Of a DNA stretch of 64,000 bases, positions 40 through 61,135 are shown piece by piece. The position numbers and the translations under genes were made by a program. Origin of the DNA: Epinephelus fuscoguttatus (taxonomy: Eukaryota > Chordata > Actinopteri > Perciformes > Serranidae). The notes beneath the pieces are model-generated. The model worked only from the letters and a program-made list of their open reading frames with translations, was not told the origin of the DNA and ran no database searches. The stretch lies in NCBI RefSeq assembly GCF_011397635.1, contig NC_064753.1, positions 42,156,322 to 42,220,321 of the forward strand, in the 5' to 3' direction. Each line of letters begins with the position of its first letter. Within the stretch, counting starts at the first letter, position 1.

Positions 40-15931
<15,892 letters not shown>

Positions 15932-21202: not shown

Positions 21203-21567
21203 AAAAAAAAGTCACAGTAGTATGTTGTCAAAAATCAAGTAAAAAAGTAAAAGAGTACTGACTTTTTCATGATTTTTGTTGGCATACTATACTATGACTT
21301 TCTTTTTTAGTAGTTTTTGACAACACTATACTATGAGGTTTTTCATGGTTTTTGTCGACATACTTTTTTCATGATTTTTGACGACATACTATACTATGAC
21401 TTTTTTCATGATTTCTGATGACATACTATACTATGACTTTTTTTAACGTGATTTTAGATGACATACTATACTATGACTTTTTTTCATGATTTTTGATGAC
21501 ATACTATACTATGACTTTTTTTCAGGATTTTTGACGACATACTATACTATGACTTTTTTTTTTACGT
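21203..21567. repeat. AT-rich minisatellite array, left part
   Basis: About eight units of 37-40 bp share the core GACATACTATACTATGAC followed by a T run and CATGATTTTTGA or ACGTGATTTTAGA. The first unit (21203-21249) is in inverted orientation relative to the rest. The array runs directly into the LINE insertion at 21568. Confidence 0.92.
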
Positions 21568-21601
21568 TTACACGGTAACAGACATTGGAACGGACACGAC
21601 T

Positions 21602-24600
21602 ATGACTTGGATCTGTGACTCAGTGAAGGATAGGGGCACGGACCTATCCACCAGTGCTAGAATTAGCAGCAGTCAGGGCAAGGTGAGCGCATCTGTAGAG
21701 GATAAAAGTAGCACAGTTGAGAACAAGATGCTTCAGGTTTGTCCTTGCGGCTGGCAGAAAGTAACATCAGTGAGAGGCCTCAGAACTCATCAGGGAAAGA
21801 AGAAGTGTGTGGCAAAGAAAGGGCAGAGTAGCCGCATTGATCAGTACTTCCTAAGAAGTCAGTCGAGTCAGTCGGATGAAGTCCAGCGGCAGGTAGAAAA
21901 CCACAGTTCGCAGGATATCAGTAACGCTGCCACTGAGGAGGAGGGGGTAGTAAGAGAAGATGCAGGTGACACTGAGGCCAGTATGCTAGCCAGAGAGAGA
22001 ACCATGGAGCAAAAGGTTAGAGTTAGATGGCCTAGAGCAAATGACAGTAAAGAATGGGAGATAGTTAATAGAGATTTGTCAGTAATCTTGAGTAGGCTTA
22101 GAGGAAATGCAATGGAAAGGTTAGAAAAGATGGGAGATATAATGTATTCATATGGTGTAGAGAGGTTTGGGGTGCATGAGAGAAAGAGGAGTGAGAGGGT
22201 ACAGTCAGGTAAGTCTAGGCGGCAGAGAGAAATAGAGAAGTTAGGAGACAGTTAAGAAAGCAGTGGAAAAAGGCTACAGAAGAAGAAAGGGAGGGAATTA
22301 AGGTGTTGCAAGAGGAGTTGAGAAGCAGGCTAGCAGTTCTTAGAAGGGCAGAGCATCTCAGGAAAAAGAGGAGGAAGAAGGAATATGCTAGGACAGGTTT
22401 TTTCAGGGACCCTTTTAAGTTTGTTAAAGGATTGTTCAGCCAGGAAAAGGGAGGGCAGCTTAAAGCAGAAAGGCTAGAGGTTGAAGAATATTTGAGAAAC
22501 ACATATTCAGATTTGGAGAAGAATAGGATAGTAGGTTTCCCACCTGATATCCCTCCATTAGGAGGGATAGAGCATGAGATGGATGTCAGGCCACCTAGGT
22601 GGAAGGAAGTTCAGGAGGTGGTCAGGCGTGCAAAGGCTTCTTCGGCCCCAGGGCCTAATGGAGTCCCCTACCGGGTTTATAAAAGTGCGCCTGATACCCT
22701 TAAATTTTTGTGGAAACAGCTAAGAATAGTTTGGGAAAAACAAATTATACCAAGAGCATGGCGTAGGGCAGGGGGTGTCCTCATTCCTAAGGAGAAGGAG
22801 TCTGTGGACCTTAGCCAGTTCCGGATGATTTCTCTCTTGAATTTGGAGGGAAGATTTTCTTTAGTGTAGTAGCGCAGAGACTAGCTAGTTACTTAGAAAG
22901 GAATAGCTTAATAGATACCATGGTGCAGAAGGCAGGAATACCAGGTTTTTCAGGGTGTTTAGAGCATACTAGCATGATCTGGCACCAGATTCAGGCAGCG
23001 AAGATTAACAAAAGGGACCTACACGTAGTATTTTTAGATCTTGCAAATGCATTTGGTTCAGTTCCGCACAGCCTCATTTGGAGTGCGTTTGACTACTTCA
23101 GAGTGCCACAGGTAGTTGTTAACTTAGTGAAAGCATACTTTCAGGATATTAGGTTGTGTCTAAGTACAGCAGGTTTCACAACAGGTTGGCAGAGGCTAGA
23201 AATAGGCATCATGGCAGGGTGTACAATTTCTCCGTTAGCATTTACTATGGCAATGGAAGTAATCATCAGGGCTTCTAAGTGGGTGGTAGGTGGGGAGAGA
23301 TGGCAGAATGGGTTGCATCTTCCACCAGTTAGGGCTTACATGGATGACATGACACTGGTGACCACAACAATGCCATGTACAAAGAGGCTACTAGAGAAGG
23401 TAAATAAGAACCTCAAGTGGGCCAGCATGAAAATCAAGCCTAGTAAATCTAGAAGCATCTCGATATGTAGAGGGAAATTAAGTGATAGGAAGTTTGTCAT
23501 AGATGACGAGGACATCCCAACAATTAGGGAAAAGTCAGTAAAGAGCTTAGGTAGGTTGTACAATGTAGAGTTGAATGATAAGGAACAGGTGGTGAAATTT
23601 AGAAAGATGTGGCTGAAGGATTGGATAGAATAGATAAATCAGAACTTCCAGGAAAGTTGAAGTTGTGGTGTTTGCAATTTGGGCTATATCCTAGGTTAAT
23701 ATGGCCACTGTCAATTTATGAAATTCCAATAACTGTTGTGGAGAGAATTGAAAGGTTGGTTAGCTCCTACATTAGGAAGTGGTTGGGCGCTCCTAGATGC
23801 CTAAATAGTGTTGCATTGTATGGAAAAGGGATACTTCAGCTGCCAGTAACTAGTTTAACAGAGGAATTTAAATGTACCAAGGTCAGGACAGAGCTCTTGT
23901 TAGCTGGGAGTAAGGATGTGGTAGTTAGGAGTGTGGTTCCAAATCCAACCAAGGAGGAAGTGGAACCCAAGATCGGCAGTTCAGGAGGCAGAGGCAGCTC
24001 TTAGACATGCAGAGATTGTAGGTAATGTTCAGTTTGGCCGGGGAGGCCTGGGGCTTGGCTCAGGTAAACCGGTATGGAATACAGCAGGCCTCAAAGATAA
24101 AAGAAAGCTGGTTGTAGAACAGATACGCAGACAGGAAGAGATAGTAAGGGGTGCAAAGGTAGTGGCCCAGGCTAAACAGGGACAGTGGTTGAATTGGGAA
24201 AGTGTAGAGAAGAGGAAGCTTAGTTGGAGGGACCTGTGGAGTATGGAGGAGAATCGTATTAGATTCCTGATAGGGGCTACATACGATGTCTTACCAACCC
24301 CCCAGAACCTAAAACTGTGGGTAAATGAGGACCCGTCATGCCCATTGTGTTCACCGCAACTTTAAAGCATATTTTGTCAGGTTGCAAAGTTAGCTTGTCA
24401 CAAGGCCGATATACATGGCGACATAATCAGGTGTTGAAATGTTTAGCTGCAGGCATTGAAGGGAAAGCGAAGACAGGTGAATTCAGAAGGTGTTAAGGAT
24501 AGGAGTTTAGTAATTCAGTTTGTCCGTGAGGGAGAGAAATACAGAAGGGATAAGTTAGTGAGGAGGCAAGGGTGTGGCCGCCTAGAAGGTGCTTGTGATT

Positions 24601-25010
24601 GGGAAATGCAAGTAGATTTAGGGGGAAAGCTTGTTGTTCCTCAGGAAATAGTCTGTACCAGGCAGAGGCCTGACTTAGTGTTGTGGTCAGTGAGTCAACA
24701 GATAGTTTATTTCATCGAGCTGACAGTTCCTTGGGAAGACTCAGTGGAAGAAGCATATGAAAGAAAAAAGCTTAGATATGCAGACTTAGGAGCAGAAGCT
24801 GAGCAGCGAGGATGGAAGACTAGGATTTGTCCAGTGGAAGTGGGGTGTAGGGGATTCATAGCAAGATCAACTGTCTCACTCCTGGGAACTGGAGTGGGGA
24901 CAGAGTTTGAGGAAGACAGTGAGGAAATGTCAGATGAAGCAATTAAATGCAGCCAGTTTATCTATTACAGAAGAAATAATGTCAGCTGGGGCCAGCAGGG
25001 GAACTACTAA
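21602..25010 (+). pseudogene. LINE polyprotein (zinc finger, RT, RLE endonuclease), frameshifted
   Basis: Residues about 42-64 of the first block form a C-x-C-x13-H-x5-C type finger (CPCGWQKVTSVRGLRTHQGKKKC). Reverse transcriptase motifs follow: APGPNGVPYRVYK (22650), FLDLANAFGSVPH (23030), MAGCTISPLAF (23210) and YMDD at 23337-23348, so both catalytic Asp regions are kept. Then comes the SLGRLYNVEL region, a CCHC knuckle (CPLC at about 24340, HILSGC at about 24370) and an endonuclease core RPDLVLW-x-VYFIELTVPWE with RKKLRY. The reading frame is broken near 22230, 22850, 23610, 23970, 24360 and 24450, at least six lesions. The protein is therefore not expressed intact from this copy. The copy must once have been active because every domain is recognisable. 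Confidence 0.88.
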
Positions 25011-25063
25011 GCAGGGCACATAACTCCTTGAGATCAGGTGGAGAGATCCACTTCCTGTCAGGA

Positions 25064-25632
25064 GAAATCCAGGAAGAGGAAGTATTTAAGTGTGGGAGTG
25101 GCCTATTGGAATCCATTTTGTTTGAGGCCATGCGGCAAGGTGAGTGTGCTTGCTGATCCTGTAAGTCCAGTTAGCTCCTTTAACTTTAGCTTATATTGTA
25201 GTTATGCTATGTAGTGTGTGAAATAGAGTATGGTGAATGTGACAGGAAAGCTAGTATCAGCATTGCTTCTGCCTGGAGCTCATGTATGGAGCCTGGGTTT
25301 GGTTGAAGATGGCAGTGCTGTTTGGGCTGAGAAAGCCATGTGTATGTAAGGAGGAAATCCAGGAAGAGGAAGGTTATTTAAGTGTGGGAGTGGCCTATCT
25401 GAATCCATTTTGTTTGAGACCATGCTGCAAAGTGAGTGTGTTTGCTGATCCTGTGAGTTCATTTATCTCCTTTAACTTTAGCTTACATTGTAGTTATGCT
25501 ATGTAGCGTGTGAAATAGAGTATGGTGAATGTGCTAGTAAAGGTAGTATCAGCATTGCTTCTGCCTGGAGCTCGCATAAACGGAGCCTGGGTTTGGTTGA
25601 AGGTGGCAGTGCTGTTCTGTTTGGGCTGAGAT
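25064..25632 (+). repeat. Tandem duplication in LINE 3' region
   Basis: GAAATCCAGGAAGAGGAAG starts at 25064 and again at 25354, and similarity continues through TTCTGCCTGGAGCTC and TGGGTTTGGTTGAAG, so two copies of about 290 bp lie in tandem. Beyond it, AGATCACTGTCTAGCCTCCT occurs at 25629 and 25848. Confidence 0.85.
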
Positions 25633-26108
25633 CACTGTCTAGCCTCCTGGAGGTGTCATTGTTGTGAGGGCTCGTCTTGGGAGGTAGACTGTACAGCCTA
25701 ACCCGGCGGGGGAGTGTGATAGCCTAACAAGGCTTCCCTCCCTGGGTCTACCTCCTCTGTGGTAATATAGGTAAGGTAAAGGAGGTTGTTCGGTTAGTGT
25801 GGGGAGCAGTGAGACCTGGCATTAGGGGAGTGTCTCTGGGACGCCAGAGATCACTGTCTAGCCTCCTGGAGGTGTCGTGGGACCAACTAGACGAAACACC
25901 GGTGAAAGGAGGTTCCCACCCGATGACCCCAAAGACATGTTAGTTATCACTGCTCATTGGTCTGTATAGTTAAGCCTTGCCATAATAGTTTGTCGTAGGG
26001 CTTAGGAGGTTATTCACTGAGTGCTGATCCCTTCTTATTTATTTATTTATTTACTTATTTATTTATTTTTTTTTTTTTTTAGAGCACAAACTTCTTGTGT
26101 TTATTTGA

Positions 26109-27617
26109 ATGACTTTTTTTTTTACGTGATTTTAGATGACATACTATACTATGACTTTTTTTCATGATTTTTGACGACATACTATACTATGACTTTTTTC
26201 ATGATTTTTGATGACATACTATACTATGACTTTTTTTCATGGTTTTTGACGACATGCTATACTATGACTTTTTCATGATTTTTGACGACATACTATACTA
26301 TGACTTTTTTTTACGTGATTTTAGACGACATACTATACTATGACATTTTTTCATGATTTTTGACGACATGCTATACTATGACTTTTTTCATGATTTTTGA
26401 CGACATACTATACTATGACTTTTTTTTACGTGATTTTAGATGACATACTATACTATGACATTTTTTCATGATTTTTGACGACATACAATACTATGACTTT
26501 TTTTCATGATTTTTGACGACATGCTATACTATGACTTTTTTTCATGATTTTTGACGACATACTATACTATGACTTTTTTTTTTACGTGATTTTAGATGAC
26601 ATACTATACTATGACTTTTTTTCATGGTTTTTGACAACATGCTATACTATGACTTTTTCATGATTTTTGACGACATACTATACTATGACTTTTTTTTACG
26701 TGATTTTAGACGACATACTATACTATGACTTTTTCATGATTTTTGACGACATGCTATACTATGACTTTTTTTCATGATTTTTGACGACATACTATACTAT
26801 GACATTTTTTCATGATTTTTGACGACATACTATACTATGACTTTTTTTTACGTGATTTTAGATGACATACTATACTATGACATTTTTTCATGGTTTTTGA
26901 CGACATGCTATACTATGACTTTTTCATGATTTTTGACGACATACTATACTATGACTTTTTTTTTTATGTGATTTTAGATGACATACTATGCTATGACTTT
27001 TTCATGATTTTTGACGACATGCTATACTATGACTTTTTTTTTTTTACGTGATTTTAGATGACATACTATACTATGACTTTTTCATGATTTTTGACAACAT
27101 ACTATACTATGACATTTTTTCATGGTTTTTGACGACATGCTATACTATGACTTTTTCATGATTTTTGACGACATACTATACTATGACTTTTTTTTTACGT
27201 GATTTTAGATGACATACTATACTATGACTTTTTTTCATGGTTTTTGACGACATGCTATACTATCTTTTTCATGATTTTTGACAACATACTATACTATGAC
27301 TTTTTTTTTTACGTGATTTTAGATGACATACTATACTATGACATTTTTCCATGGTTTTTGACGACATACTATACTATGACTTTTTTTTTATGTGATTTTA
27401 GATGACATACTATACTATGACTTTTTCATGATTTTTAACGACATACTATACTATGACATTTTTTCATGGTTTTTGACGACATGCTATACTATGACTTTTT
27501 TCCTCATTTTTGGCGACATACTATACTATGACATTTTTTTTACGTGATTTTAGATGACATACTATACTATGACTTTTTTTCATGATTTCTGACGACATGC
27601 TATACTATGACATTTTT
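26109..27617. repeat. AT-rich minisatellite array, right part
   Basis: Roughly 40 units of 37-40 bp. Two unit types are interspersed: type A (CATGATTTTTGACGACAT) and type B (ACGTGATTTTAGATGACAT), both joined to ACTATACTATGAC and a T run of 5-12. Variation among units is mostly in T-run length, GATG/GACG, and CATACT/CATGCT. Confidence 0.93.
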
Positions 27618-27716
27618 TCAAAAATCAGGAAAAAAGTCATAGCATAATATGTCGTCAAAAATCAGGAAAAAAGTAATAGTATAGTATGTCATCAAAAATC
27701 ATGTAAAAAGTCATAG
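27618..27716. repeat. Inverted terminal units of the minisatellite
   Basis: The array switches strand at 27618: three copies of CAAAAATCAxG-x-AAAAAGT-x-ATAG are the reverse complement of the preceding units. The junction makes a palindrome that could extrude a hairpin. Confidence 0.9.
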
Positions 27717-60319: not shown

Positions 60320-61135
60320 CCAGTGATGGTAGTGTCAGCAGCCGAAATCAGGCCAGTTGATTTGGTTCGATCCTGAGACATCATTCATCCTGAGTCTCAG
60401 CCAAGTCAGGCAACTGCACGCGGCCCAACTTACTTCTTCCAGCATATCAAGTTTTGGCGGATGCTGGGCCAGGTCATTTTTATAGTAGCCCAGTAACAGC
60501 AGTGTTGGCAGCCAAAATCAGGACAGTTTATTTGGTTTGATTCTGGGGCATCATTCATCCTGAGTCTCAGCCAAGTCAGGCAACTGCACCTGGCCCAAAT
60601 TACTTCTACTTCTTCTCTTCCAGCGTATCGAGTTTGGACTGATGATGGGCAGGGTCATTTTTATAACAGCCCAGTTATGGCAGTGTTGACAGCTGGAATT
60701 GGGACAGTTATTTGGTCCAATTCTGGGGCATCATTCATCCTGAGTCGCAGTCGAGTCGGGCAACTTTAGGCGGCCCAACTTATTTCCTCTGGCGCTGATA
60801 CTGGGCCAGGTCATTTTTGATGATGGCCAAGTGATCGCAGTGTCGGCAGCCAGAATTGGGACATTATATTTTGTCCCATTCTGGGGCTTCATTGACCTGA
60901 GTCTCAGCTGAGTCGGGCAACCGGATGCTGCCCAACCTATTTGTGTTGGCAGTGTTGGTAGCTGAAGCTGGGACAGTTTATTTGGTCCAATTCTGGGGCA
61001 TCATTCATCCCAGGTCTCAGCCGAGTTGGGCAATCAGTTGCAACCTGACTTCTTTCAACTGGCGTGATGAGTTTTGGCTGATGCTGGGCCAGGTCATTTT
61101 GGATATCTGGGCAATATTAGTTATCATAGTTAATA
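60320..61135. repeat. Tandem repeat, about 170-bp unit, five copies
   Basis: The anchor CATCATTCATCCTGAGTCTC recurs at about 60379, 60549, 60729 (TCGC variant) and 60999, with a shortened form (CTTCATTGACCTGAGTCTC) near 60887. Each unit also contains GTGTTGGCAGC or a variant, a GGACAGTTTATTTGGT segment, and GCTGGGCCAGGTCATTTT. Spacings are about 170, 180, 159 and 111 bp, so the last copies are shortened. No coding potential. It may be the internal repeat of a larger transposon or a small satellite block. Confidence 0.85.

Follow-up and report, generated by a model that had tools for sequence, protein, structure and literature searches.

A 5'-truncated LINE within a minisatellite of Epinephelus fuscoguttatus belongs to a dispersed family with head-to-tail copies

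The window analysed here is a 64,000-nucleotide stretch of the genome of the fish Epinephelus fuscoguttatus (NCBI RefSeq assembly GCF_011397635.1, contig NC_064753.1, positions 42,156,322 to 42,220,321 of the forward strand). Within it, a 4,542-bp copy of a long interspersed nuclear element (LINE), at 21568-26109, splits a minisatellite of 38-bp type (period mostly 36-44 bp). An earlier note on this DNA had described the LINE as inserted into a pre-existing minisatellite and flanked by identical 19-mers, and both points are confirmed, with array on both sides of the element and the 19-mers at 21549-21567 and 26109-26127. The same note had taken the element to be near-complete and the right-hand array to resume exactly where the left-hand unit stopped. 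Neither description holds: the copy lacks the first ~247 bp of a 4,797-bp unit and its frame lies in six pieces, with the start codon (21602) kept, and behind the final GAA of the LINE 18 bp are repeated, the 19th base being the A of that GAA. Alignment of the copies places about 248 bp more element sequence, starting TCAGAACTAGCCCAG, ahead of the 5' end of the window copy, the closing letters of which are ...TTTATTTGAA.

The element is a non-LTR (long terminal repeat) retrotransposon, as its LINE/R2-type reverse transcriptase (RT) domain shows. As is usual for a LINE, the same 3' end stands before 34 distinct flanks and the 5' ends fall at many positions of the unit. Among 18 fetched insertions only one, L038, contains a 1070-aa open frame, in which RVT_1 (E 1.3e-22) was the only profile matched; its protein gave ten matches in the PDB, L1 ORF2 and R2 proteins among them. 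The next longest frames inside the element measure 623 aa (L046), 541 aa (C12) and 438 aa (L036), while a 563-aa frame listed for L039 falls outside the element of that insertion. Read by eye, the L038 frame also carries a knuckle, CX2CX7HX4C, and a PD...E...K pattern. The LINE of the earlier note was upheld; for the restriction-like endonuclease (RLE) that the note ascribed to it, an RLE-like signature was read at the C-terminus by motif only. Neither an apurinic endonuclease (APE) nor an RLE profile of Pfam matched the pieces of the window copy or the L038 frame, no endonuclease match to the C-terminal part was found among solved structures, and an AlphaFold model of the C-terminal 279 aa of L038 had a mean pLDDT (predicted local distance difference test) of 33 and was discarded. 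When the window copy was compared with the fetched copies, gap openings mostly outnumbered mismatches (the opposite for L033 and L038, and even for L034), so that wrong bases in the assembly may account for some of its broken frames; the alternative is an unusual indel decay.

Table 1. Features of the LINE insertion and of the minisatellite around it (positions in the window; ORF, open reading frame; UTR, untranslated region).
Feature	Position	Strand	Basis
Minisatellite, left part (host DNA)	21285..21567 (start approximate)	+	Sequence, motif spacing; TRF rows within 21314-21560
19-mer ATGAC-T10-ACGT, left copy	21549..21567	+	Sequence
LINE insertion, 4,542 bp, 5'-truncated, unit positions ~248-4797	21568..26109	+	Boundaries by comparison with other copies
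Remains of a single ORF, first ATG at 21602, six pieces in the window copy	21602..25010	+	Translation
N-terminal Cys/His motif CxC-x12-H-x4-C, zinc-finger-like	21740..21808	+	By eye; no zinc-finger profile match
Reverse transcriptase domain, Pfam RVT_1, E 7.8e-19	22956..23552	+	Profile match; PDB matches to R2 and L1 proteins
C-terminal part, PD...E...K...Y signature, read as restriction-like endonuclease	24447..25007	+	Motif only
3' UTR with imperfect direct duplication of ~270 bp	25040..25650	+	By eye; 272-bp self-matches of ~90% in other copies
Putative promoter serving the following array unit: TAATATA at 25763; 5' end of L048 maps to 25789	25763..25789	+	Inferred
LINE 3' end TAGAGCACAAACTTCTTGTGTTTATTTGAA; 436 exact genomic copies	26080..26109	+	Copy comparison
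19-mer, right copy; its opening A doubles as the final LINE base	26109..26127	+	Sequence
Minisatellite, right part	26110..~27620	+	Tandem-repeat rows

The earlier note had further proposed the minisatellite as the target of the LINE, a proposal to be given up if other copies lay in unrelated DNA, and in this genome they do. An RLE that recognised the ACTATACTATGAC minisatellite and made a 19-bp target-site duplication would account for an insertion inside the array between identical 19-mers, and LINEs with an RLE are described as often target-specific, microsatellites included (PMC4640811). Against this, 34 distinct 3' flanks were read, and minisatellite follows the LINE only at the window, the other 33 being other DNA without the exact motif; exact array motifs occurred in 2 of 77 fetched loci, both of which are the window copy. 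The minisatellite itself is dispersed over many contigs, with 2,504 motif matches genome-wide at up to three mismatches, and the last 30 bases of the LINE have 436 exact copies, yet a genome-wide pattern search for TATACTATGA 12-42 bp behind the LINE end (same orientation, most array phases) returned the window only. A crude scaling from the window gives the minisatellite ~0.1% of the genome, at which share ~0.5 of the 436 insertions would be expected inside the array; one array insertion is therefore about what chance would provide. Nor was a convincing target-site duplication, short or long, seen at the edges of any of the 14 other insertions that were read at both ends (L031, L038 and L042 offered less than 1 kb of left flank), the best edge repeat among them being 5 bp (L043). 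For 3' flanks in the orientation and phases covered, these data make a site-specific LINE hardly credible, and the window copy of this dispersed family, which lacks this target, probably landed in the minisatellite by chance.

At the 3' junction itself, T follows the GAA in 32 of the 34 flanks. In five flanks the following letters are TTCA, with which the next unit also opens, and in five they are TGAA; both strings are commoner there than in nearby flank DNA. This points weakly to a local preference, noted post hoc. One insertion, L050, lies between inverted flanks (164 bp, 77% alike), as if it had landed in a palindromic element resembling a miniature inverted-repeat transposable element.

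By themselves, the identical 19-mers of the window prove no target-site duplication, because many junction pairs in an array with a 36-44-bp period would show such a repeat. They may reflect the register of the array, and a deletion of suitable size would likewise leave a matching 19-mer. T10 occurs in both of the flanking B-type units, and in 5 of 12 B-type units when these two are included, and the smallest spacing of B-type units inside the right-hand array is 78 bp. This spacing mildly favours a single duplicated unit, or the loss of tens of bp, rather than a plain small deletion; taken with the T10 shared by both flanking units, it leans mildly towards a true duplication. Inverted minisatellite units close the array on its right side (27618-27716). 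Further along the window, at 60435-60942, tandem-repeat rows show periods of 181 bp and 157 bp, with about two copies of each.

Comparison of the copies revealed a repeating unit of about 4,797 bp with a fixed 3' end, ...TTTGAA(T), and variable 5' ends, and every aligned copy that reaches the unit start has the 3' end of another copy directly before it. The first 36 bases of the unit have 34 exact copies in the genome, all of them inside matches that reach 26-470 bp upstream into the 3' end of a preceding unit (the upstream stretch of the query was 466 bases). Together with six matches in which the start is altered, these fall into 33 loci on many contigs. The unit-to-unit junction reads TTTGAAT/TCAGAACTAG. 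Of 24 junctions for which the letters were read, 23 share the same 22 bases, GTTTATTTGAATTCAGAACTAG, without added bases, and the remaining one (L055) keeps the register but has substitutions. At some loci two to four junctions follow one another: C12 spans 13.2 kb, with two complete units and a partial third one, and C13 has four junctions ~4.8 kb apart. Three junction matches are only 89-93% identical, which suggests that the head-to-tail habit of the family is not brand new. A long target-site duplication was considered as the source of the 250-bp spacer between tandem copies and rejected, since the spacer is element sequence and the 14 other insertions lack convincing edge repeats. A self-cleaving ribozyme at the junction was likewise rejected: L041, the one sequence compared with Rfam, gave five weak matches with E up to 5, none of them a ribozyme, and a scan of one unit found no hammerhead core with a partner; a diverged fold of hepatitis delta virus type could still be present.

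The genome was searched with a 431-base 3' query, and the best 40 of 1,182 first-look candidates (99-100% identical, near-full cover) were grouped by position into 35 insertions. The 99-100% identity of these best-scoring copies over the 3' region indicates that the family moved recently. In this sample from the best 40 of 1,182, the unit junction is crossed by 22 of the 35 insertions (the downstream unit of C10 was not read to its end). It is not crossed in the other 13; seven of these have both ends read, in two (L051 and L064) the 5' end lies just inside the unit, and in four no element sequence was present in the bases read where a unit start would be expected. Where both ends were read (n=15), the insertions measure 532, 1,748, 2,472, 3,055, 4,542 (the window copy), 4,603, 4,721, 4,884, 5,010, 5,089, 5,111, 5,520, 6,062, 6,182 and 13,193 bp.

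The 5' ends that were read scatter before and after the unit boundary, and none lies on it. In 8 of the 15 insertions the 5' end falls within -342..+300 of the boundary, an interval that makes up 13% of the unit (P 0.0003) and that was chosen after seeing the data. Among the 40 junction matches, 11 have their start 25-342 bp ahead of the junction. Four of the 11 (L036, L043, L048 and L049) belong to the eight clustered ends, and the other seven were seen as alignment starts only. The most upstream read end of the cluster, that of L048, lies 320 bp before the unit end and 20-26 bp after the string TAATATA.

Taken together, these data are probably best explained if the window insertion is a young, 5'-truncated copy, placed by chance, of a dispersed single-ORF LINE (RT and an RLE-like C-terminus), and if the family is copied from an RNA starting in, or running through, the upstream unit. 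Such an RNA would be copied into the genome by target-primed reverse transcription. A candidate start in the upstream 3' UTR, ~320 bp short of the end of that unit, would place 3' UTR at both ends of the RNA; longer read-through RNA would give larger chains, and truncation would give a mix of sub-unit, unit-plus and multi-unit insertions. The cycle would then resemble that of Penelope or HeT-A, in an RLE-like LINE. A start in the upstream unit is favoured because none of the 34 exact unit starts is free, the 5' ends scatter round the boundary and the end of L048 lies near TAATATA; its placement near -320 is inferred from the positions of the 5' ends and from this TATA-like string.

Chains could also be built during copying, if a monomer RNA were copied to its 5' end and the enzyme then jumped to the 3' end of another RNA. 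The longer in vitro products of R2 proteins arise in this way, and head-to-tail tandems were the major class of 3' junctions with an endonuclease-dead protein (PMC11371274). In addition, the units of one insertion can carry different variants common to other loci. However, copying of a monomer should often stop precisely at the unit start, whereas none of the 34 exact starts is such an end and the read 5' ends lie before and after the boundary. Junctions made by template jumping are expected to vary; with 23 of 24 identical and free of added bases, the jumps would have to be near-obligate and base-exact, and we regard this process as an unlikely source of the chains. Misassembly of repeated DNA is a very improbable source of the chains: the excess of gap openings over mismatches in most comparisons with the window copy hints at imperfect base accuracy, but the chains occupy 33 separate loci on many contigs, have differing outer flanks where these were read, and consist of units unlike one another.

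Alternatively, copies that begin with a partial 3' repeat might expand after insertion, by unequal exchange or replication slippage. Such local growth would leave the first junction unexplained. The three units of C12 carry different variants common to other loci, and 9 of 12 units elsewhere are closer to C12.3 than C12.2 is. In L033 the neighbour is more distant than every one of the 20 comparable units elsewhere, in part since L033.1 is unusually diverged; the two units of this insertion carry 56 variants in 4,785 bp and 2 in 1,675 bp. The fit is also poorer, if less clearly so, in L031 (7 of 21 units elsewhere closer), L037 (4 of 14) and L042 (2 of 23, plus 12 equal). Divergence amounts to 4.3 substitutions per kb within insertions (11 pairs) and to a similar 5.1 between them. 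The variants of C12 and the unequal divergence of the L033 units thus argue, at the level of sequence comparison, that the chains are not simply local duplicates, and local growth as a general account is improbable. As a separate observation, the units of L033 look as if drawn from sources of different age.

Several points weigh against a template RNA that starts in the upstream unit or passes through it. Neighbouring units are mutually closest in L038 and L046, those of L046 having in common a variant found in no other unit, and C12.2 has C12.1 as a near relative, with 1 of 13 units elsewhere closer; these cases fit local duplication equally well. The sample of the best 40 of 1,182 candidates overstates junction-bearing insertions, so that its counts are not genome-wide rates. 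With 436 exact 3' ends and 34 exact unit starts, junction-bearing insertions are a minority, and most insertions either stop short of the unit start or carry an altered one. The interval used for the clustering of 5' ends was set post hoc. Upstream parts that extend beyond -342, as in L031, L033, L037, L038, L042, L046, C12 and others, need either an RNA longer than one starting at -320 or another process. Finally, the C-terminus is read as RLE-like by motif only.

Among known elements, the family may be closest to the HERO clade. LINEs of fish with an RLE and without a specific target are known (HEROFr, HEROTn and HERODr), and many members of this clade insert as the present family does, without a specific target; the passages on HERO in these sources do not mention head-to-tail chains (PMC3636483, PMC4640811). 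The family is perhaps HERO-like; in its otherwise target-free insertion a weak local preference at the 3' junction remains. Among solved structures its RT has R2 and L1 proteins as relatives, and the knuckle of L038 fits the published form CX2-3CX7-8HX4C (PMC5678591), whereas R2 itself targets 28S ribosomal DNA and the present family is dispersed. Utopia, an RLE LINE that targets U2 small nuclear RNA genes, includes an element with occasional tandem insertion (Utopia-1_NVit), but its copies lie at the common U2 target (PMC4640811), and no common target was found among the copies read here.

Parallels in arrangement also exist outside the RLE LINEs. Penelope-like elements, which have pseudo-LTRs (pLTRs), typically occur as tandem or partial-tandem copies, and in them, as here, part of an upstream unit precedes a full one; these elements differ in having a GIY-YIG endonuclease and a hammerhead motif (PMC11167929), in place of which the present family has an RLE-like C-terminus, no ribozyme match (L041) and no hammerhead core in the unit scanned. 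Membership among the Penelope-like elements (GIY-YIG, telomerase-like RT) was rejected, as only RVT_1 was matched in the L038 frame and the RT matches L1 and R2 proteins. The telomeric LINEs HeT-A and TAHRE form head-to-tail arrays in which a sense promoter in the 3' UTR serves the next element (PMC5537684), the arrangement proposed here. HeT-A chains, however, grow by successive additions at chromosome ends, and the present chains lie at many sites within contigs. A search of the open PMC literature, in titles and abstract openings, found no report of RLE-LINE chains at dispersed sites.

The window insertion itself is ordinary; of moderate interest, as a variant, is the way in which its family is built. 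A more far-reaching interpretation, which we put forward tentatively and which may well prove wrong, is that the family has a terminally redundant working genome, an RNA that runs from the upstream 3' UTR across the junction to the next 3' end. Every full-length insertion would then be born at a random site as a partial or full head-to-tail multimer carrying its own promoter, and a pseudo-LTR life cycle would have been reached independently of Penelope, HeT-A and LTR elements. If this terminal redundancy of the RNA is true, the LINE would solve the problem of the lost promoter as Penelope and HeT-A do, and the family would be a system for asking how pseudo-LTRs arise.

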